Both the position numbers and the translations under genes were made by a program. A stretch of DNA of 64,000 bases, from contig NZ_CP083723.1 of NCBI RefSeq assembly GCF_020150815.1, forward strand, positions 2,356,001 to 2,420,000. Reading direction: 5' to 3'. Under the pieces are notes generated by a model that made no database searches, was not told the origin of the DNA, and saw only the letters and a program-made list of their open reading frames with translations. The DNA comes from Haloprofundus salilacus. Its GTDB lineage: Archaea; Halobacteriota; Halobacteria; Halobacteriales; Haloferacaceae. Positions 3,728 through 39,583 of this stretch are shown piece after piece; the stretch's first letter is position 1; the number at the start of each line of letters is the position of its first letter.

Positions 3728-4699
3728 TCAGACCGCCTGAACAGCCTCGACGAGTTTACATTTCCGGCAGACGGTGCCGCCCGTCTTCGACCCACAGCGC
3801 TCGCACTCGTTGAGTTCGACGTCCTCGTCGCCGTCGCCGCGGTACTGCTCGGCGGCCATCCGCGCGAGTTCCTCGTAGCCGGCCATAATGGAGTGACGCG
3901 TGCCGGGGTGGTTCTCCTCGAGTTTGAGCAGCAACTGCTGGATTTCCCCCCGGTAAGCTTCGCTCGCGTGCGGGCACTCGGTGATGTGCGCCGGGAGGTC
4001 TTTGAGGTGCGCGTACAGCGCGACTTCCTTCTCCGGTACGTCGCGCAGCGGTTTCGCGCGAGGGACGAAGTTCTCCGAGAGAGCGCGCTTCTCGAAATCG
4101 CCGATGCTCGCGTCGAAGTGCTTCGCCACCTGCGTCACGTCGCCTTCGAGGAAGTTCATCAGCGCCGTCTGCGCCTCGTCGTCGAGGTTGTGGCCGGTAA
4201 ACAGTTTGTCCGCGCCCAGTTTCTCTGCGTACTGTTCGAGCAGGTCGCGTCGGAAGACGCCGCAGTACGCGCAGGGGGCCATGTTCTCGGGGTCTTTCTC
4301 CACCACGTCGTCCATCCGGACGCCGAGTTCCTCCTCGTAGGAGACGACCTCGTGGCGGAGCGAGAGCTCCTCGCAGAGTTCGACGCAGGCGTCGAGGCTC
4401 TTGTCGCGGTAGCCTTCGATACCCTCGTGGATGGAGAGCGCGACGAGTTCGATTCGGGGGTCCCGCCCGAACGTGTCCTCTAAGATGTGGGTGAGCACGA
4501 CACTGTCTTTGCCCCCCGAGAGCCCGATGACCCACGTGTCGGGGTCGTCGGGGCTGGCGTCGCGGGGGACGAGGCTATCCTCGCGGACGCGTCGCCGGAC
4601 GCGTTTGTCGACCGAGGCGCAGAAGTGGTTCTCGCAGAGATGCGCCCCAGAGTAGTCCGCGACCATGACGGCGTCGCGGTCGCACTTGTCGCACTCCAT
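3728..4699 (-). CDS. ncsA: NcsA, tRNA 2-thiolation enzyme (TtuA/Ncs6 family)
   Basis: A 323-residue PP-loop ATPase. An N-terminal zinc motif (CDKC, then C and H) and a C-terminal one (CERC, CRKC) flank the catalytic core. The PP-loop SGGKDS is at 61-66. The three cysteines that bind the iron-sulfur cluster in this family appear at C143 and C146 (CAYCG) and C242 (ECPH). It adenylates tRNA and transfers sulfur to the wobble uridine of tRNA-Lys(UUU) in H. volcanii, with sulfur carried by the ubiquitin-like SAMP2 activated by UbaA; a ubaA gene lies at 38768. I chose the ATG at 4699 because the zinc motif begins there. It is convergent with ftsZ2, as in Haloferax. Confidence 0.92.
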   Translation of the reverse strand: MECDKCDRDAVMVADYSGAHLCENHFCASVDKRVRRRVREDSLVPRDASPDDPDTWVIGLSGGKDSVVLTHILEDTFGRDPRIELVALSIHEGIEGYRDKSLDACVELCEELSLRHEVVSYEEELGVRMDDVVEKDPENMAPCAYCGVFRRDLLEQYAEKLGADKLFTGHNLDDEAQTALMNFLEGDVTQVAKHFDASIGDFEKRALSENFVPRAKPLRDVPEKEVALYAHLKDLPAHITECPHASEAYRGEIQQLLLKLEENHPGTRHSIMAGYEELARMAAEQYRGDGDEDVELNECERCGSKTGGTVCRKCKLVEAVQAV

Positions 4700-13188: not shown

Positions 13189-13497
13189 TTAATCCGAGCC
13201 TGTCTCGTCGTCTCCGCCGGGCGTAATCGGTTCGGGACGCCGTCCCGAACTAGGCCGGACCCCTCGCGATTCGTTCGGTCGCTGGAGCGCTCGCCCGCGC
13301 ACCGTACTGTCCCAGTCGCTGAACAGTCCGTAGTCGGTCATCGTCTCCATCCCGGCCAGCGCTGCGCGCAGTTGGAGTCCGACGAGCGGAATGCCCGCGA
13401 CGACGATGACCACGTCCGCCTGTATCATCACCCCCTCGGTGAGCAACACGTCGAGGAGATCGACGACCGCGTCGTCCGAGCGACGCGTCGGTCTCAC
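13189..13497 (-). CDS. gvpM: Gas vesicle protein GvpM (GvpA/J/M family)
   Basis: A 102-residue protein with the GvpA-type fold: AVVDLLDVLLTEGVMIQADVVIVVAGIPLVGLQLRAA resembles GvpA and GvpJ strongly. A 45-residue polar C-terminal tail follows that is longer than in Halobacterium GvpM (about 84 residues). The start is a GTG whose last bases overlap the gvpL stop (GTGA), so the two are translationally coupled. GvpM is a minor structural or nucleation component and is one of the eight genes known as essential in Haloferax transformants. It is the last gene of the gvpF-M operon. Confidence 0.9.
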   Translation of the reverse strand: MRPTRRSDDAVVDLLDVLLTEGVMIQADVVIVVAGIPLVGLQLRAALAGMETMTDYGLFSDWDSTVRGRALQRPNESRGVRPSSGRRPEPITPGGDDETGSD

Positions 13498-14435
13498 CGC
13501 GAGCGACCTCCCGCGTTGCCGGCGTCGGGTGCTTCCGCGTCGCCATCGGTAGTTCTCGCTTCGTCGCCAGCGTCGGTTGTTCTCCCGTCTCCGTCGTCGG
13601 TGCCTTCTTCGTCGTCGAGCGACGGTGCGAACGTGTACGGCGGCCACGGGCCGGTGTACTGCACCTCGGTCGTCGCCGGGTCCGCCTCGACGTCGTCGAG
13701 AACGTCGCCGATGGGTATCTCGTTCTCTTCGGGCGCGAGGACGGCGACCCGAAACGAGGGACCGCCCTCGGAGTCGCCGGCGTCGTCGAGCGACACCGAC
13801 GGGCGGCCGAGCTCCTCCATCTCGTCGACTAGCGGGTCGAGCCGCTCGGCGAGTGCCGCCACGCGCTCTTCCCGCTCGGCGTACACGAGCTCCGAAAGCC
13901 GCTTGTCGTACTGTTTCTGGACGAGAAACGACGTTCCCTCCGAGGAGGACTCCAGCGTCTCGGCGAGTTCGCCCAGTTTCTCGTCGGACGCTTGGACCGT
14001 CTCGGTCAATGCGTCTTCGTCCCATCCGACCTCGATACGGTACTCCCACTTGCCCGAGAACGCGTTGAGATACTGTCGCTGCGTCTCGACCGTCTCCGCC
14101 AGCCAGCGTTCGACCGACGCGTCGCCGCCTTCGACGACGGTTCCGAACCGGAGCGGCAGCGGCGTTCCGAACGCCTCGCCCGCCGCGTCGACGACGTGCT
14201 GGTGGCGGAGCAGCGACTGTTTGACCGCCGAGAGGTCGCTCGGGTTCGGCGTCGCCTCGCAGCGGTGGACGACTGCGCCGACGCCGTCGGCCGCGACGAG
14301 GTACGCCTCCGCGCCGTCGACGCCGTTCGACTCTCTCCACTCGGATTCGTCGTCGTCTTCGTTGACGCCGACGACGCAGTAGACGTACCGGCCGTCGTCG
14401 ACGTTCGTACCCGGTTCGGCGGTCGGCGCGCTCAC
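13494..14435 (-). CDS. gvpL: Gas vesicle protein GvpL (GvpF/L family)
   Basis: A 313-residue GvpF/L-family protein. The N-terminal domain begins RYVYCVVGV, and the C-terminal domain ends with VQYTGPWPPYTF (about residues 259-270), the same signature found in GvpF here (VQYTGPWAPYNF). A Thr/Asp/Gly-rich tail of about 40 residues follows the signature. GvpL is an essential accessory protein that binds many other Gvp proteins in Haloferax and is thought to be a scaffold in assembly. The ATG overlaps the gvpK stop by four bases. Confidence 0.93.
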   Translation of the reverse strand: MSAPTAEPGTNVDDGRYVYCVVGVNEDDDESEWRESNGVDGAEAYLVAADGVGAVVHRCEATPNPSDLSAVKQSLLRHQHVVDAAGEAFGTPLPLRFGTVVEGGDASVERWLAETVETQRQYLNAFSGKWEYRIEVGWDEDALTETVQASDEKLGELAETLESSSEGTSFLVQKQYDKRLSELVYAEREERVAALAERLDPLVDEMEELGRPSVSLDDAGDSEGGPSFRVAVLAPEENEIPIGDVLDDVEADPATTEVQYTGPWPPYTFAPSLDDEEGTDDGDGRTTDAGDEARTTDGDAEAPDAGNAGGRSR

Positions 14436-14743
14436 CGCGACTCGACCCCCAGTTCGCCGTCGCGGAGGTCGATCAGCGCGTCGTTGACCAGCGCGTCGAG
14501 GTCCCCGCGCAGTCGGTCCACGTCGTCGCCGACACCGACCTCATCTTTCAGGCGCTCGATCTCGTCTTCGAGCTGCGCGAGGTGGCCGCCGAGTCGCTCT
14601 ATCTCCTCGTCGGTGAGCGCCCCCGACTCCATGCGCCGTATCGCCTCGCGTTCGAGCGCGTCGATGAGTATCTCGACGACGGCGACGACCAGCGCGAACA
14701 GGCCGTCGGAGGCGTCGTCGCCGTCGATTTCAACGGTCGACAT
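14432..14743 (-). CDS. gvpK: Gas vesicle protein GvpK
   Basis: A 103-residue helical protein. An N-terminal amphipathic helix (LFALVVAVVEILIDALEREA) is followed by a coiled coil (ERLGGHLAQLEDEIERLKDEV), as in the GvpK family (about 110 residues in Halobacterium). GvpK is one of the eight genes needed for gas vesicle formation in Haloferax; its biochemical role is unclear. The ATG at 14743 lies 14 bases inside the end of gvpJ. Downstream gvpL overlaps by four bases. Confidence 0.92.
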   Translation of the reverse strand: MSTVEIDGDDASDGLFALVVAVVEILIDALEREAIRRMESGALTDEEIERLGGHLAQLEDEIERLKDEVGVGDDVDRLRGDLDALVNDALIDLRDGELGVESR

Positions 14744-15146
14744 CGCCACCCCCCGACTCGGCGGTCGCTTCGGGCGTCTCGGACGAGTCGTCCGCTTCGG
14801 TTTCGGTATCCTCGTCGTCCTCTTCGTGCTCCTTGGTCGTCTCTGCCTCCACGTCGGTGCTCGACGCGTCGATGATGGGCGCGAGCGGACCGTCTTCGCC
14901 CTCCGGGAGTGCTTCTCGACCCGACGCCGCCTCGACGCGCCGCATGTCGGTCCCCTCGGGGAACTGTAGCCCGTACTGGGCGGCCGTCTCGAACGACGCG
15001 ATGGCCGCCCGGAGCTCAATTCCGAGTAACTCCGTCTCGCCGACGGAGACGACGATGTCCGCGTTGATGACGATGCCTTTGTCCAGCAACATCTCGACTA
15101 CGTCGGCGAGACTGTCGCTCGTCCGCGTGGGACCGGGGCTACTCAT
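14730..15146 (-). CDS. gvpJ: Gas vesicle protein GvpJ (GvpA/J/M family)
   Basis: A 138-residue protein. Residues 11-60 are a GvpA-like domain (SLADVVEMLLDKGIVINADIVVSVGETELLGIEL). After it comes a long acidic tail of about 55 residues rich in Glu, Asp and Thr. GvpJ is a minor shell component thought to form vesicle tips or nuclei. The gene overlaps gvpI by eight bases and gvpK by 14. The acidic tail is longer than in the classic Halobacterium protein (about 114 residues) and may hold water or bind partners; that is inference. Confidence 0.92.
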   Translation of the reverse strand: MSSPGPTRTSDSLADVVEMLLDKGIVINADIVVSVGETELLGIELRAAIASFETAAQYGLQFPEGTDMRRVEAASGREALPEGEDGPLAPIIDASSTDVEAETTKEHEEDDEDTETEADDSSETPEATAESGGGDVDR

Positions 15147-16002
15147 CGTCTGGCACCCCCTTCTCGAACCGCGGGCCGTAGATTCGTTCGAGACCCTCGG
15201 CGTCGGAGTGTCGCACCTGCTTCGGAACCGTCGAGTGCCGCGTCGCACCGGCGTCGGGACGGGTGCTCGGTATGAACGACCGAGCGGTTGGGTTCCGGGA
15301 GTTCGAGGTCGAACTGGCCCGCTGCCGGAACCGTTTCTCGTTGTACTCCCGCATCCGGTCGAGTTCCTGGTGGGCGACGATGATGCCGCGACGGAACTCC
15401 TCTATGGCCGCTCTCAGCTCCGACTGGATGACCGCCTGCGACACCTCCGTCTGCGCCATCGTCGTCTCCTCGTCGGAGCCGAGAAGCGAGTCGCCGAAGA
15501 GGTCGCCGTCGCCCCCGAAACCGCCGATACCGCCGTCGTTTTCGTCGCTTTCGTCGTCGGTCTGTACCATCCCGTCGTCGGTGAACGCGTCGACGGCTTC
15601 CTCCAGTTCGGCGTACTCCTCGCGGGTGCGCTGGAGATCCGTCTCGGTCAGAAGCGAACTCAGGTTGACCAGTTGGACGAGTTTTGCGACGTTCACCGCC
15701 GCCTTCGGGTTTCCGTCCGCGAGCGCCTCCGGGAGTTCGTCGAACGAGATTGCCTCCGGCAGTCGGTCTACGTCGGTGTTATCGAGGAGCGTCGAGAGGT
15801 CGACCGTCGAGAGGAGTTCGGCCGCTTCGACGGCGACATCGACCAGTAGGTCGAGGTCGGTCGCGAGCTGCTCGCCCGCGGTCGCTTCGCCGTCGCCGTC
15901 GTCCGAGAGGCGGCCGAGAATCTCGACGGCGGTGTCGTAGAGGTCGTCGACGCCGTCCAGTGCGTCCATCGGATCGGATCCGGTCTCCGCGTCGGTACTC
16001 AT
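15139..16002 (-). CDS. gvpI: GvpI-position protein, long form with an added N-terminal region
   Basis: A 287-residue protein in the slot where gvpI sits in other clusters, between gvpH and gvpJ, with ATG overlapping the gvpH stop. The N-terminal 150 residues are helical and acidic (DLDLLVDVAVEAAELL, FDELPEALADGNPKAAVNVAKL). A Gly/Asp-rich linker comes next. The C-terminal 110 residues are basic and start with a helix (VIQSELRAAIEEFRRGIIVAHQELDRM), then an RNPTARS motif. Known GvpI proteins are short and basic, about 145 residues, so only the C-terminal part would correspond. It is not essential in Haloferax models. I am confident of the gene, less of the name. Confidence 0.7.
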   Translation of the reverse strand: MSTDAETGSDPMDALDGVDDLYDTAVEILGRLSDDGDGEATAGEQLATDLDLLVDVAVEAAELLSTVDLSTLLDNTDVDRLPEAISFDELPEALADGNPKAAVNVAKLVQLVNLSSLLTETDLQRTREEYAELEEAVDAFTDDGMVQTDDESDENDGGIGGFGGDGDLFGDSLLGSDEETTMAQTEVSQAVIQSELRAAIEEFRRGIIVAHQELDRMREYNEKRFRQRASSTSNSRNPTARSFIPSTRPDAGATRHSTVPKQVRHSDAEGLERIYGPRFEKGVPDDE

Positions 16003-16535
16003 GTGTTTTCCTCCATCTCCGCCAGTTCGAGTTGCGCGTGGAGCACGTGGTTCCGGAACGTCGTCTCCACGAGCGTCATCGGCTGGTCGAACGTCACCCG
16101 GCCGACCGGTCGGTCGTCGACGCTCACGACCAGCGTCTCGCCGTCGTCGCTCAACGTCGTCTCGACGCGCTCCTCTGAGACGCCGGGAACGTCGGCGAGC
16201 ACGTAGTAGGAGTCGCCGTCGACGCGGCTGTCGAGGTGGAGGTTCGACGCGTCAAACGAGTCGTCTACCTGCACGCGACGTGTGCGGTCGGACCGCTCCG
16301 GCTCCGCGTTCGGTCGGCCGGACAGCCCCGTTCTGATCGAGTAGTCGAAGTCGGCGTCGGCCGACCCGAAGCGCGTGCTGCCGGTTCCGATGCTACGGTT
16401 CTCGCCGCGGTCGTCAGTCTCAGCGAGCGCTTCCAGAAACGACTGGACGCGCCCGAGAAGTCCGCGGGGCGGCCAGTCGACCGGTTCGTCGTCGGGCTCG
16501 TCGTCGCGTCGGTCGGTCGGTCGGTCGTCGGTCAC
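15999..16535 (-). CDS. gvpH: Gas vesicle protein GvpH (HSP20-like)
   Basis: A 178-residue protein. The first 85 residues are polar and disordered. The C-terminal 90 residues are an alpha-crystallin-like domain: YYVLADVPGVSEERVETTL and TLVVSVDDRPVGRVTF match the small heat-shock fold. GvpH acts as a chaperone-like accessory protein and is dispensable in Haloferax models. The ATG overlaps the gvpG stop by four bases and its own stop overlaps gvpI. Confidence 0.88.
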   Translation of the reverse strand: MTDDRPTDRRDDEPDDEPVDWPPRGLLGRVQSFLEALAETDDRGENRSIGTGSTRFGSADADFDYSIRTGLSGRPNAEPERSDRTRRVQVDDSFDASNLHLDSRVDGDSYYVLADVPGVSEERVETTLSDDGETLVVSVDDRPVGRVTFDQPMTLVETTFRNHVLHAQLELAEMEENT

Positions 16536-16789
16536 GTCTGTGCCACCTGTACGTTACCGCTGAGCAGTTTTTGTTGCATCTCTTCGGCCAGTTCGAGGTC
16601 GTCTCGGAGCTCCTCGCTCCGCGTTTCGTACGTCTCTCTGTCCAGTTCGCCGAGTTCGTACAGCAATCGCGTCTCCTTCAGTTGGTCCTGAATCGCGCCC
16701 ACGTCGTACACCTCGTTCACCGCCATCGTGTGCAGCGTGTCCGCGATGGTCATAAGCGGCTTCACCAGGAGTGTATCGAGTATAAACAT
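16532..16789 (-). CDS. gvpG: Gas vesicle protein GvpG
   Basis: An 85-residue helical protein: FILDTLLVKPLMTIADTLHTMAV, then a charged coiled coil (ELDRETYETRSEELRDDLELAEEM). This is the full GvpG family length. GvpG is essential in the eight-gene minimal set. The ATG at 16789 overlaps the gvpF stop (ATGA), which decides this start over the longer frame. Confidence 0.93.
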   Translation of the reverse strand: MFILDTLLVKPLMTIADTLHTMAVNEVYDVGAIQDQLKETRLLYELGELDRETYETRSEELRDDLELAEEMQQKLLSGNVQVAQT

Positions 16790-17415
16790 CACTGGGCTCC
16801 CTGGGCACCGATCTCGATGTCGACGAAGTTGTACGGGGCCCACGGCCCCGTGTACTGTACTTTCAGTTGCCCCTCGTACGCCTCCGTCACGTCACCCATC
16901 ACCTCGTCGAACGCCTCGCGGTCCTCGTGGGCGACGAGATAGGAATCGTTGACGACGAGACGGTCGCTGAACAGGTCGTTCTCGGCGCGGTCGTTGCTCA
17001 CCTCGCCGAGGCGCTCTCTCACGTCGTCGCGCACCGCCTCGCGGTCGACGTCGACGCCCTCCTCGGTGACGAGTTTGACCCCGAGTTCGACTTTGCCGTC
17101 GACGTTCATCAACGCCCGACGGAAGGCGCGCTGTCCACCGCGAAGGACGCTTTTCAGCGCGCGGGCGTTCTTGAACGTCATCCCGAAGCGCATCGGGACG
17201 ACGGTTCGGTCTTCGATGAGCGCCTGGAGGACGTCGTCGTGGAGTCGGGCGTTCTCGTCGGTCTGCTCGGGTTCCATCGTGTCGATGTCGCTCACGATGG
17301 CCGAGTAGCGTCGGTAGTCGACGGTGTACACCGACGTCGCGTCCTCGACGGCCGGGAGGTCCAACTCGAACGACCCGTCGTCTGTCACCCCGTACGTGTA
17401 AAGATACTCAGTCAT
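16789..17415 (-). CDS. gvpF: Gas vesicle protein GvpF (GvpF/L family)
   Basis: A 208-residue GvpF/L-family protein. It starts TEYLYTYGVTDDG and holds VVPMRFGMTFKN in the middle and the C-terminal signature VQYTGPWAPYNF. GvpF lies on the gas-facing surface in some species and binds GvpA in haloarchaea. It is the first gene of gvpFGHIJKLM. On the minus strand a TATATTAA at 17438-17445 lies about 25 bases before the ATG, so the transcript is probably leaderless. Regulators gvpD and gvpE, which usually precede gvpF, are absent. Confidence 0.95.
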   Translation of the reverse strand: MTEYLYTYGVTDDGSFELDLPAVEDATSVYTVDYRRYSAIVSDIDTMEPEQTDENARLHDDVLQALIEDRTVVPMRFGMTFKNARALKSVLRGGQRAFRRALMNVDGKVELGVKLVTEEGVDVDREAVRDDVRERLGEVSNDRAENDLFSDRLVVNDSYLVAHEDREAFDEVMGDVTEAYEGQLKVQYTGPWAPYNFVDIEIGAQGAQ

Positions 17416-17608
17416 GGGAAATCGACTGCCGTTGCCGTTAATATAGTCGTCAACACAGGGGACCCTTGTGCCGGCAAGTGCAGGGTGTTTATACGTGACC
17501 CGGCGGACGAGGTGACATCCACTCGACAGGCGCGCTATCGGAAGACATGTACACCCTGCATTTGCAGGCCAAGTGGCTAACCCTGTCCTCGCTGTTCCTA
17601 CGGGTACG
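17416..17608. promoter_or_regulatory. Divergent gvpF/gvpA promoter region with ACCCT/AGGGT repeats
   Basis: The minus-strand TATA for gvpF is at 17438-17445. On the plus strand the only clear AT-rich box is TTTATA at about 17488-17493, which would give gvpA a leader of roughly 90 bases. ACCCT or AGGGT occurs at 17462, 17482, 17553 and 17580. The pair 17462/17482 forms an imperfect dyad around TGCCGGCA. TGCAGGGTGT (17479-17488) and ACACCCTGCA (17551-17560) are exact reverse complements on both sides of the presumed gvpA start site. I did not find the GvpE activation site known from Halobacterium. Confidence 0.6.
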
Positions 17609-17872
17609 ATGCAGAAAACACCAGAAAGCACGAGTCTCGCGGAAGTCCTCGACCGCATTCTCGACAAAGGAATCGTCATCGACATCTGGGCGCGGGTGTC
17701 GGTCGTCGGTATCGAGATCCTCACTGTCGAGGCTCGTATCGTCGTCGCATCGGTCGACACGTTCCTGCACTACGCACACGAGATATCGAAGATAGAGCAG
17801 GCGACGTCCGGCGAGGGCGAAGTCGACATCAACGAACTTGAAGTCGAGACGAACCGACCGAACGCGAGCTAA
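17609..17872 (+). CDS. gvpA: Gas vesicle structural protein GvpA
   Basis: An 87-residue protein nearly identical in pattern to haloarchaeal Gvp[51 protein letters not shown]. GvpA forms the ribbed protein shell of the gas vesicle, excluding water and giving buoyancy. The C-terminal tail ([16 protein letters not shown]) is about ten residues longer than the classic 76-78-residue protein. The ATG at 17609 is chosen because GvpA proteins begin a few residues before LAEVLDR. It is first of a plus-strand unit with gvpO; gvpC and gvpN, which usually come next, are missing. Confidence 0.97.
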
Positions 17873-36036: not shown

Positions 36037-36498
36037 CTACTGCTTCGCGGCGCGGACGAGGTAGGTGAGCGCCGCACCCATGAGCGCGAGGTTCTTCATG
36101 AACTGAATCTGTTCGTCCTGTCTGCCTTCGTCCTCGTCGAGGTTCCAGAAGTCGTGTATCGCCGGCGTGACGCCCGCGAGGAACGCGAAGGCGGCACCGG
36201 AAGCGAGCGTCGGGAGACGCCAGAGCGCGACGCCGAGACCGCCGAATGCGCCCATGCCGCTGGCGAACGGGACCAGCGTTTCGGGGGCGGGGACGCCTTT
36301 CGACTCGGCGTACTGAATCATCCCCTCCATCTGCTTGAAGTTCGTCGCGGCCATGAATCCGAGAGTCGCGCCGAACAGGAGTCGACCGAGCACGAACGGC
36401 TTGTCGGGCGACGATTCCGACGAAGACGCCGCTCCCGTCCGTTCGGCGGCGGTGTCTGTCGCCGCCTCGTCGTGCGTGTAGAGTTCGAGTAAGCTCAC
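36037..36498 (-). CDS. DoxX family membrane protein
   Basis: A 153-residue protein with a polar N-terminal 35 residues and four membrane helices. PFVLGRLLFGATLGFMAATNF and the conserved end HDFW...FMKNLALMGAALTYLVRAAK match DoxX. DoxX proteins are small membrane proteins linked to redox or thiosulfate:quinone chemistry in some archaea. The proximity of rhodanese and TusA genes downstream is suggestive of sulfur chemistry, not proof. Confidence 0.8.
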   Translation of the reverse strand: MSLLELYTHDEAATDTAAERTGAASSSESSPDKPFVLGRLLFGATLGFMAATNFKQMEGMIQYAESKGVPAPETLVPFASGMGAFGGLGVALWRLPTLASGAAFAFLAGVTPAIHDFWNLDEDEGRQDEQIQFMKNLALMGAALTYLVRAAKQ

Positions 36499-36653
36499 AC
36501 GGTGGGGGCCACGACCGGAGAGTTACCGGTTGTCCAGTTGTGTGCGGACCGCGTCAAACCACGGCCGCGGCGAACGAGAGAGGCCCGACGAGAGACAGAA
36601 AGGGACGAGTCAGCGGAGTCAGAGACGGGATGGTGACCGCGAAGGAGAGGCGT

Positions 36654-36959
36654 TCAGGAGTCGTCCCACGCCTCGTAGCCGCCGGTCAGGCTAGCCACCT
36701 CGGCGTCGTCGGCGTAGTGGTCGATGAGCCGCGCCGCCTGCACGGAGGTCTCGCCGACGTAGCAGGCGACGACCACCTCGTCGGCCCACTCGCGCTCCTC
36801 GACGACCGCCTCCAGTTCGTCGACCGGGACGTTCTCCGCGCCGTCGATGGGTGCGTCCTCGAAGTCCTCGCGATCGCGGATGTCGACGAGGTCAAACTCC
36901 GCGTCGGCGGCGAGGCGGGCGCGCACCTCATTGGGGGTGAGTTCGTCGACGCCGCTCAT
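36654..36959 (-). CDS. Rhodanese-like sulfurtransferase
   Basis: A 101-residue single-domain rhodanese. The start VDELTPNEVRARL, the LVDIRDREDFEDAPIDGAENVP core and the active-site loop CYVGETS (Cys66) are all present, with GGYEAW at the end. It would carry sulfur as a persulfide. Its ATG overlaps the stop of the TusA-like gene by four bases, so they are co-translated, presumably passing sulfur from one to the other. Confidence 0.92.
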   Translation of the reverse strand: MSGVDELTPNEVRARLAADAEFDLVDIRDREDFEDAPIDGAENVPVDELEAVVEEREWADEVVVACYVGETSVQAARLIDHYADDAEVASLTGGYEAWDDS

Positions 36960-37255
36960 CGTTTTCTGAGGAAGATGCGGTACAGTCCGCTGCCGCTGCG
37001 CCAGACGCGCGCGTCGGCGTCGTCGCCGACCGCGCGGGGGACGTTCTCCGTCGAGGGGACGTGGTCGGTCTCCTGGACGAGCAACTCGCCCGAATCGAGC
37101 GTCTGGATGGCCTTCTTCGCCTCGACCTGCGGGTACGGACAAACCTCGCCGGTCATGTCCTGCGTCTCGGTGGCTTGGTCTGCGAGCTGTTCGGCCGTCT
37201 CGTCGTCGACTTCGTCGGGCATCTCGACGAAGTCGTCAAGTGATGGTCCGGTCAT
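36956..37255 (-). CDS. TusA family sulfur carrier protein
   Basis: A 99-residue protein. The first 33 residues are an acidic lead. The TusA domain then starts with the CPxP motif VCPYPQVEAKKAI (Cys39), and the rest gives the two-strand end RVWRSGSGLYRIFL. TusA moves sulfur as a persulfide between partners. I chose the ATG at 37255 rather than the longer frame, whose first 31 residues look unstructured. It lies 73 bases after the YeeE/YedE transporter gene, and the rhodanese gene overlaps its stop. Confidence 0.9.
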   Translation of the reverse strand: MTGPSLDDFVEMPDEVDDETAEQLADQATETQDMTGEVCPYPQVEAKKAIQTLDSGELLVQETDHVPSTENVPRAVGDDADARVWRSGSGLYRIFLRKR

Positions 37256-37328
37256 GGTTCGTGTGGTCTGTGTTTCGCGTGTGTCGCTGTGGAGTGGAGT
37301 GTCTTTGGAACTCGGTCGCCTTCGGAAC

Positions 37329-38522
37329 TCAGATGGCGCAGCCGACATCGCGGTAGATCCAGTGCGTCATCGCATAGACGCCGGCGATTATGCCAGCGGT
37401 GGCGATGAAGGAGTGCACCGAAAGCTCCGCGAGGCCGGAGTAGATGTTTCCGATGTTGCAACCGGGTGCGAGTCGGGAGCCCGCGCCCATCATGAAGCCG
37501 CCGACGACGGCGTTCGGGACGCGGCGGCGCTTCGGGACGCGAATCGAGAAGTCGCCGCTCCAGAACGCGGCGAGGAACGCCCCGAGGATGACTGCCGCGA
37601 TCATCACCATGTCGACGGTGAGGCCGACGCCCTTCCCCTGAAAGAGGATTGAGCCCCAGTACTCGTACGAACCGGCGTCGACGCCGACCTGCTGGAGCAG
37701 GTAGCCGGTCCAGCGCGCCTCCGGGCCGGTGACACCGACGATGGAGACCTGCGTGAACCACAGCACCGCCAGCGCCGTGATACCAAGCGCGGCGGTCCGC
37801 GGGTCCCACGGGCGCTTCGAGGCGGCCTTCCAGTCGTCTATCTCGGCGAAGCCGCGGAAGTACTCGCGCGTCCCGGCGACGAACTGGCGGAGGCCGACGG
37901 CGGGCGCCGACGCCCCCAACCCACGACTGGTCGGTGTACCGCCGTCGGCGCGGACCGCCGCGGCGTCGTCGGTTCCACCTGCACCGCCCGCGGCGGAGCG
38001 GCCGACGATCGTCGCGTACGCCAGCAGGACGAGGCCGGCGACGCCGAGCGCGAGCAGGGGTGCGGGCACCGGTGACACCTCGAAGAGGGTGACGCCAGTG
38101 CCGAACGTCAGCGGCTCGAAGTAGGCCGACTCGAGCGTCGGGAACAGGACGGTGAACACCGCGTAGCCGACGCCCATGAACGCGAGCGTGAGCCAGAAGT
38201 GCAGGTAGCCCTGTCCGGCGCGGTAGAGCGTGCCGGAGGCACAGCCGCCGGCGTACGTCATCCCGACGCCGAAGACGAAGCCGCCGAGGAGGCCGGTGAG
38301 CCCCCAGTCGGGCGTCCAGAAGCCCTGGTAGTAGCCGAGGGCGTAGGCGATGCTCCAGAACACCATCGTGAGCGTCGTCGCGACCAGCACGGCCTTCGTC
38401 ACCCGCGAGTCCTTGAACGCGAAGAAGTCGCGGAAGGCGTGTACGAAGCAGAAGCGACCCTTCTGCAGGAACACGCCGAGACCGACGCCAACGACGAGTG
38501 CGGTCAGTACGTTCGACACCAT
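37329..38522 (-). CDS. YeeE/YedE family sulfur-compound transporter (TsuA-like)
   Basis: A 397-residue membrane protein with about ten helices and two repeats of the YeeE/YedE unit. Each repeat carries a Cys-containing Gly-rich motif: GGCASGTLYRAGQG (about residues 92-105) and GSRLAPGCNIGNIYSG (about 347-362). In the related bacterial TsuA, which imports thiosulfate, such Cys residues pass the substrate inward. An acidic loop separates the repeats. Together with tusA and rhodanese downstream it forms a sulfur uptake and relay operon. Confidence 0.9.
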   Translation of the reverse strand: MVSNVLTALVVGVGLGVFLQKGRFCFVHAFRDFFAFKDSRVTKAVLVATTLTMVFWSIAYALGYYQGFWTPDWGLTGLLGGFVFGVGMTYAGGCASGTLYRAGQGYLHFWLTLAFMGVGYAVFTVLFPTLESAYFEPLTFGTGVTLFEVSPVPAPLLALGVAGLVLLAYATIVGRSAAGGAGGTDDAAAVRADGGTPTSRGLGASAPAVGLRQFVAGTREYFRGFAEIDDWKAASKRPWDPRTAALGITALAVLWFTQVSIVGVTGPEARWTGYLLQQVGVDAGSYEYWGSILFQGKGVGLTVDMVMIAAVILGAFLAAFWSGDFSIRVPKRRRVPNAVVGGFMMGAGSRLAPGCNIGNIYSGLAELSVHSFIATAGIIAGVYAMTHWIYRDVGCAI

Positions 38523-38767
38523 TCAGTCCCCGGTAGTCGACTCCGACGGATAAGCCGCACCGTCGGACGAACGCCTGCCGAGGCCCGTCACGCGTTATCG
38601 ATGCCGTTTCTGACAACTACGGTCGAAAATAGCCTTCTCGAACCCTGAGCGTCGAAGACGGTGGCGACGAGTCGACAGCGGCCGCGACGCAGAAATCGGA
38701 GACACTTGCCGAATCGCGTGCGACACGCTCCCGCACCCTTATGTCCGCCAACCGCAAACGCCCAGCT

Positions 38768-39583
38768 ATGAGCGACCTCTCTCTCGACGCGACGCAGTTG
38801 GACCGCTACTCGCGGCACATCATCATGGACGAGGTGGGACCCGAGGGACAGAAGAAACTGCTCGACGGGCGCGTCCTCATCGTCGGCGCGGGCGGTCTCG
38901 GCGCGCCAGTAATCCAGTATCTCGCCGCGGCAGGTGTCGGCGTCATCGGCGTCGCCGACGACGACGTGGTCGAACGGTCGAACCTCCAGCGACAGGTCAT
39001 CCACACCGACGCCGACGTGGGGGTTCCGAAAGTCGAGAGCGCCGCGAACTTCGTCGAACGGCTGAACCCCGACGTGACCGTCGAACAGCACCACCTGCGC
39101 GTCGGTCCGGACAACGTCGAGGAACTCGTCGCCGACTACGACGTAGTCGTCGACGCCTCCGACAACTTCCGGACACGCTACCTCGTCAACGACGCCTGTC
39201 GCCTCGCGGAGATTCCGGTCGCCCACGGAGCTATCTACAAGTTCGAGGGGCAGGCGACGACGCTCGTCCCCGGCGGCCCCTGCTACCGGTGTCTGTTCCC
39301 CGAAGCGCCCGAACCAGGCACGGTTCCGGACTGCGCGACAACGGGCGTGCTCGGCGTGCTCCCGGGGACGCTCGGCTGCATCCAGGCGACCGAGGCCGTC
39401 AAACTCCTCATCGACGCTGGCGAACCGCTGGCCGGTCGACTGCTGTTCTACGACGCGATGGAGATGAGCTTCGAGACGGTTCCGTACCGCCAAAACCCCG
39501 ACTGCCCGGTCTGTGGCGACGACCCCATCGACTCCGTCGCCGACGTGGAGTACACCGGCGGCTGCGCGGTACAGGCGGACTGA
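38768..39583 (+). CDS. ubaA: UbaA, E1-like activating enzyme for ubiquitin-like SAMP proteins
   Basis: A 271-residue MoeB/ThiF-type protein. It has the nucleotide motif VGAGGLGAP (about residues 39-47), the catalytic Arg in NLQRQVIH, the Zn-binding pairs CYRC and CPVC, and the active-site Cys in PDCATTG (residue 189, one off the C188 I recall for H. volcanii). UbaA adenylates SAMPs for sampylation and for sulfur transfer to molybdopterin and tRNA. NcsA, its partner in tRNA thiolation, is encoded at 3728. I chose the ATG at 38768 (MSDLSLD). No rhodanese domain is fused to it. Confidence 0.93.
   Translation: MSDLSLDATQLDRYSRHIIMDEVGPEGQKKLLDGRVLIVGAGGLGAPVIQYLAAAGVGVIGVADDDVVERSNLQRQVIHTDADVGVPKVESAANFVERLNPDVTVEQHHLRVGPDNVEELVADYDVVVDASDNFRTRYLVNDACRLAEIPVAHGAIYKFEGQATTLVPGGPCYRCLFPEAPEPGTVPDCATTGVLGVLPGTLGCIQATEAVKLLIDAGEPLAGRLLFYDAMEMSFETVPYRQNPDCPVCGDDPIDSVADVEYTGGCAVQAD

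Follow-up and report, generated by a model that had tools for sequence, protein, structure and literature searches.

What does an operon encoding a YeeE/YedE transporter, a TusA protein and a rhodanese do directly beside ubaA, the gene for the E1 enzyme that activates the small archaeal modifier proteins (SAMPs)? This arrangement was found in the window studied here, a stretch of 64,000 nucleotides from Haloprofundus salilacus (contig NZ_CP083723.1, positions 2,356,001 to 2,420,000), and the initial annotation proposed from it that the rhodanese supplies a sulfurtransferase domain missing from UbaA, with TusA and imported thiosulfate feeding it. Our analysis favours an accessory system that would take up thiosulfate and relay its sulfane sulfur, and in which the rhodanese would be able to serve UbaA in trans, a reading to which we give a probability of roughly 0.5. 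The link of the cassette genes to an E1 is real and the neighbourhood goes beyond chance, while the cassette itself is optional.

All four genes were found where the initial annotation had placed them, with Pfam and NCBIfam in agreement. The yeeE, tusA and rhodanese genes form a tight minus-strand operon that is divergent from the plus-strand ubaA. The stop codon of tusA and the start codon of the rhodanese gene overlap by four bases (ATGA), yeeE and tusA are separated by 73 bp, and, given the best UbaA start (38768, for a protein of 271 residues), 245 bp lie between it and the divergent start of yeeE. UbaA exceeds the 450-bit cut-off of the NCBIfam equivalog for SAMP-activating E1 enzymes, has the catalytic C188 (present in 147/148) and aligns to the Uba4 structure 6yub. 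Pfam matched its ThiF domain alone and no C-terminal rhodanese, which bears out the proposed absence of that domain and sets UbaA apart from the fused E1 enzymes of the Uba4/MOCS3 type. The UbaA and the rhodanese of the window match different parts of one fusion model, PRK08762, and in this they resemble the two parts of Uba4/MOCS3, MoeZ and PRK08762, with the difference that here they are separate genes on opposite strands.

The rhodanese is a single-domain, GlpE-like protein of 101 residues whose one cysteine, C66, lies in a CYVGETS loop and is kept in 35 of 35 relatives. It falls below the NCBIfam cut-off for GlpE (48.8 against 102 bits), with the CxxGxxS active-site loop present, and also below that of a rhodanese-MoeB fusion model (46.4 bits). 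YeeE is a TsuA-like membrane protein of 397 residues which aligns with the Spirochaeta TsuA structure (PDB 6leo, E 4.7e-29) such that the three relay cysteines fall at C25, C94 and C355. All 23 haloarchaeal relatives compared keep these three cysteines, and also a fourth, C395, near the C-terminus. The TusA protein is TsuB-like, 99 residues long and the sole TusA of its genome (a single place in the genome search); it aligns with the TsuB portion of PDB 8k1r, a structure of TsuA with TsuB (E 9.6e-8), and its one cysteine, C39, occurs in a CPxP motif and is kept in 20 of 20 relatives. By these two alignments the pair has the cysteines of TsuA-TsuB (YeeE-YeeD), three in the membrane protein and one in the CPxP motif of the adjoining TusA-like partner, within the same fold family. 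It is unlike TsuA-TsuB in the length and variable middle of YeeE, in the conserved C395, in the coupled rhodanese as third gene and in its scores against the NCBIfam models. YeeE is probably an importer of thiosulfate, as the source of sulfane sulfur.

The distribution of these genes was followed in a sample of 145 genomes of the class, and the surroundings of ubaA were read in 141 of them; G007, G050, G088 and G129, with no listed UbaA place, stand outside this neighbourhood count, which was made by six-frame reading and covered all 141 loci. UbaA was found in 145 of 145 genomes, whereas YeeE of the window type occurs in 27, TusA of the window type in 26, and both together in 24. Because UbaA is universal and YeeE and TusA are present in few genomes, the operon is not the general sulfur donor, and this candidate was rejected. 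The full cassette stands at ubaA in three of the 141 genomes, all belonging to g1, the genus of the window, and YeeE alone in one (G073). A rhodanese without YeeE or TusA was found at ubaA in 11 of the 141, five of them in genus g6, which we judge to be Haloferax, one in g14, three in g29 and two in g31. These solo rhodaneses, from families f1 and f7, are always divergent from ubaA and lie 101-138 bp away. Among the named loci (the best 80 of 320), a solo rhodanese at ubaA was observed in Haloferax mucosum, Haloferax profundi and two Halogranum species, and in Halegenticoccus soli small genes separate the cassette from the nearby ubaA. The initial annotation named a lack of conservation of the neighbourhood as a refuting result; this applies to YeeE-TusA at ubaA, whereas the adjacency of a rhodanese recurs.

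Across the 145 genomes, 26 of the 27 places listed for TusA of the window type have a rhodanese no more than 75 bp away, which is more than chance would produce. For at least 11 of these 27 TusA-rhodanese places a UbaA-type E1 is found no farther than 7 kb away, where random placement would give about 0.12, an assumption that makes the chance figures rough; tallied by genus, the proportion is 5/13. In G029 (L306), three tandem proteins resembling two-domain rhodaneses were observed 5' of YeeE, beside a YeeE-TusA-rhodanese cassette.

The cassette is optional even within g1, as two of five congeners (G019 and G081) have DoxX and UbaA and no cassette at ubaA. The doxX-ubaA spacer of G019 is 141 bp long and matches window positions 36516-36576 (75%) and 38708-38770 (95%), the two matching parts meeting at one point. 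The difference between the two genomes, 2.1 kb, contains exactly yeeE, tusA and the rhodanese gene and represents either an insertion or a clean deletion. The operon as donor, in the form first proposed, thus gives way to an accessory one. In Halogranum amylolyticum a decayed YeeE, divergent from ubaA, lies between its rhodanese and ubaA; it corresponds to the first ~110 residues and is 83% identical to the window YeeE over 96 residues. This indicates that the cassette, or at least yeeE, once stood at ubaA outside g1 and that the rhodanese remained, and the remnant favours an earlier occupation of the ubaA site within the family.

Two rhodanese trees were built, the first with 50 rows (loci available, matches above 50 bits and 80 residues, duplicates removed) and the second with 48 rows after two long rows were removed. 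In the first tree the g1 rhodaneses group with those of the solo cassettes in a single clade, next to which Haloferax, Halogranum and Halobellus make up another, and the f7 rhodaneses fall elsewhere. A single clade for all 18 rhodanese rows at or near ubaA was rejected by the approximately unbiased test (p-AU 0.0001), as was a single clade for the 14 stand-alone ones among them (p-AU 0.0003), and one group for the five f7 rows was allowed (p 0.31). The bootstrap values of the tree under test had not settled. Since counts of changes cannot separate gain from loss, the rhodaneses at ubaA may have settled there repeatedly, or the linkage may be old, with some rhodaneses moving away later.

A second setting for the same genes was found in at least nine genomes that carry a further UbaA-type E1 (UbaA2), a lower bound because the count was drawn from the best UbaA matches. 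The nine form one clade in a UbaA tree of 70 rows, comprising one UbaA1 per genus and chosen genomes, with seven loci whose UbaA was missed by gene calling excluded. All nine listed genomes contain the TusA-rhodanese pair, a SAMP1-like carrier and a cysteine-synthase relative, and the carrier was found among the 145 genomes in these nine and G021 only. YeeE, a desampylase and the cysteine-synthase relative mostly share one island with UbaA2, often alongside beta-propeller genes and a two-domain rhodanese that has a signal-like N-terminus and is predicted to be secreted; in G084 the island is in two parts ~70 kb apart. The claim that a stand-alone rhodanese provides the missing domain is strengthened to this extent, that such rhodaneses recur at UbaA-type E1 enzymes, both at ubaA (11 of 141 loci and the three cassettes) and in the UbaA2 islands.

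The tail of the island carrier is SGG followed by one to three residues in nine of nine cases, which suggests that the GG has to be exposed by proteolysis. A CysO-type gene set (GG-tail carrier, E1, JAMM protease and cysteine-synthase-like enzyme) is present in the islands and not in the window, the island synthase scoring 240 bits where the cysKM cut-off is 344, and we regard the islands as a candidate pathway from thiosulfate to cysteine. Bacterial operons of E1, ThiS/MoaD, JAB and cysteine synthase, and E1 genes without a rhodanese beside SirA/TusA, are described in passages of PMC1779556, where TusA/SirA is predicted as a stand-in for the rhodanese near bacterial E1 enzymes. As far as those passages go, the UbaA2 islands share with these operons the carrier, the E1, the JAMM protease, the cysteine-synthase relative and TusA, and differ in being haloarchaeal, in having rhodanese and TusA both as separate genes and in the added YeeE importer; the window locus itself is without carrier, JAMM protease and cysteine synthase. 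A desampylase-type JAMM gene was also observed up to 5.2 kb from ubaA, mostly convergent, in 14 of the 141 genomes (families f3, f4, f7 and f8; for example L160, L266 and L215).

From the observed gene content and order, the cysteines, the recurrent linkage and the co-inheritance, we infer the substrate, the direction of sulfur flow, the sulfur transfer and the contact between rhodanese and UbaA as follows. YeeE would import thiosulfate, the TusA-like protein would accept its sulfur on the CPxP cysteine as TsuB does, and the translationally coupled rhodanese would take over the sulfane sulfur in persulfide form. The likeliest acceptor downstream would be a carrier of the ubiquitin-like type that a UbaA-type E1 adenylates. 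In this genome, which also encodes MoaE, two MoaD-like proteins ending in GG and a desampylase, UbaA and the MoaD/SAMP-like proteins would pass the sulfur to molybdopterin and to 2-thiouridine in tRNA; in other haloarchaea a second UbaA, its own carrier and the cysteine-synthase relative would be the recipients. The rhodanese is placed here as a partner of UbaA in trans because of the linkage, the YeeE remnant and the fusion models that join both halves, and it would then correspond to the domain that Uba4/MOCS3 carries in cis, with the cassette as a supplementary route and not the general donor. By the title of a 1985 paper, thiosulfate is reportedly a major thiol of low molecular weight in halobacteria, and the cells may thus have an ample supply of the donor. 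NcsA, named in the initial annotation as the end user for tRNA, is encoded in the window (cut-off of its model, 500 bits), but at 34 kb from ubaA it was rejected as part of the neighbourhood.

Several observations weigh against a relay to UbaA. At 127 of the 141 ubaA loci neither the cassette nor a rhodanese of this type (other types were uncounted) lies within 140 bp, 16 of the 27 TusA places are far from any E1 among the matches listed, and divergent neighbours need not share a function. YeeE and TusA fall far short of the NCBIfam cut-offs for TsuA/TsuB (NF052577, 136.6 against 400 bits; NF041049, 95.3 against 645; NF041048, 32.4 against 147.5), so they are better said to work like TsuA/TsuB than to be these proteins. 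Rhodanese domains occur at nine places in the same genome, with two-domain proteins and another single-domain rhodanese among them, and any of these could serve UbaA. Finally, a rhodanese partner has already been reported, as the rhodanese-like UbaC is said, in the title of a 2019 paper, to act in ubiquitin-like modification and sulfur mobilization. The missing-domain proposal is in consequence only partly new, and the premise that the sulfur donor of the SAMPs is little known is partly out of date. By that title, UbaC of Haloferax volcanii is, like the window rhodanese, a stand-alone protein working with the SAMP system; its locus, which we take to be HVO_1947, is not a neighbour of ubaA, and the likeness between the two is one of description.

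These points give room to other explanations. In plain thiosulfate assimilation, YeeE would import thiosulfate, TusA and the rhodanese would split it to yield sulfide and then cysteine, and the proximity of ubaA would be an accident or a convenient promoter. We consider this quite possible, if short of an even chance: most cassettes that have no E1 island are distant from ubaA (for example in G117, G066, G093, G012, G121 and G142), congeners keep ubaA without the cassette, and bacterial YeeE-YeeD alone is described in part of PMC11073785 as enough for growth on thiosulfate. It leaves aside, however, that the rhodanese-E1 linkage recurs across two families and involves both E1 paralogues, that Haloferax and Halogranum have the rhodanese alone at ubaA, with the YeeE remnant in Halogranum amylolyticum, and that cysteine synthesis in the islands itself seems to be routed through an E1 and a carrier. 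A somewhat unlikely account is that housekeeping sulfurtransferases (UbaC, TssA/TssB or a cysteine desulfurase) serve UbaA and that the window rhodanese is redundant for it. The reported role of UbaC and the nine rhodanese places fit this, and a relative of the window rhodanese occurs in at least 142 of the 145 genomes (best matches, the weak end of the range lying outside them), so most of them manage without such a neighbour. Moreover, part of PMC2948915 reports SAMPylation in Haloferax volcanii of HVO_0025, a URM1-pathway homologue of the rhodanese type. Rhodaneses settling beside ubaA or UbaA2 are left unexplained by this account, which is nevertheless compatible with the relay to UbaA, and both may hold.

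Two further uses of the operon were considered. Thiosulfate oxidation for energy, with DoxX linking to quinones, is suggested by the DoxX-family gene that comes after the rhodanese in the window and likewise in G022, G099 and Halegenticoccus soli; we think it very improbable, as G019 and G081 retain the gene at this place without the cassette, it does not adjoin the solo cassettes and its Pfam score only equals the cut-off. Its retention in G019 and G081 also led to the rejection of DoxX as a member of the cassette. Selenium transport by YeeE is scarcely credible and was rejected: its top-scoring model is indeed the YedE/FdhT selenium model NF033796 (156.6 bits, cut-off 350), but the genome has no SelD above the cut-off (best 65 against 125 bits), the companions are sulfurtransferases and YeeE has the TsuA cysteines.

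In the region between yeeE and ubaA a TATA-like CTTAT stands ~28-30 bp before each start, from which both transcripts are probably leaderless. The sequence near both starts is kept in G000, G022 and G099, and its ubaA side also in G019. Elsewhere in the window a gas-vesicle gene cluster was found, and all coordinates are collected in the table.

Table. Positions of the features discussed; numbers without a locus prefix refer to the window.
Feature	Position	Strand	Evidence or remark
Rhodanese	36654-36959	-	PF00581 49.5 bits
TusA	36956-37255	-	PF01206 42.6 bits
YeeE	37329-38522	-	PF04143 187 bits
ubaA (SAMP-activating E1)	38768-39583	+	PF00899 280 bits; NF047750 527 bits
DoxX-family gene, 3' of rhodanese	36037-36498	-	PF07681 23.6 bits, exactly the cut-off
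Divergent yeeE/ubaA promoter region	38523-38767		TATA-like CTTAT
Cassette extent absent from congener G019	~36577-38707		spacer comparison
NcsA	3728-4699		NF047749 628 bits
Gas-vesicle gene cluster	13189-17872		GvpA, GvpJ, GvpL matches
Decayed YeeE, Halogranum amylolyticum	L016:9415-9754	-	between rhodanese and ubaA
UbaA2 islands	L148:4488-15870, L149-L154		genomes G064, G047, G011, G071, G096, G038, G030

The relevant part of PMC2948915 reports no new strong links in the gene neighbourhoods of this E1 family and few rhodanese associations that relate to ubiquitin-like pathways, so the recurrent rhodanese-ubaA adjacency goes beyond that survey as given there. A cysteine desulfurase or a rhodanese is named as possible sulfur donor of SAMP2 in a passage of PMC4048286, and a table in PMC5198076 lists a 'Sulfurtransferase' as neighbour of hvo_0558, the ubaA gene, which makes the prediction testable in Haloferax. 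In searches of the open-licence literature, neither YeeE cassettes of haloarchaea nor UbaA2 islands were noticed as the subject of a paper.

If a relay to UbaA is correct, it would put a name to the rhodanese that works in trans with archaeal E1 enzymes, and it would answer the question, left open in the part of PMC11073785 concerned, of which protein receives the sulfur of YeeD. Tentatively, and a little below even odds, we suggest that what is the sulfurtransferase portion of Uba4 in eukaryotes exists in haloarchaea as a gene of its own next to the E1, open to exchange and tied to a thiosulfate importer and TusA, and that some lineages have a full inorganic thiosulfate-to-cysteine pathway that would run through a second UbaA, a SAMP-like carrier whose GG is freed by the desampylase, and a cysteine-synthase relative. 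If this is true, a ubiquitin-like system would serve bulk sulfur assimilation in some haloarchaea.

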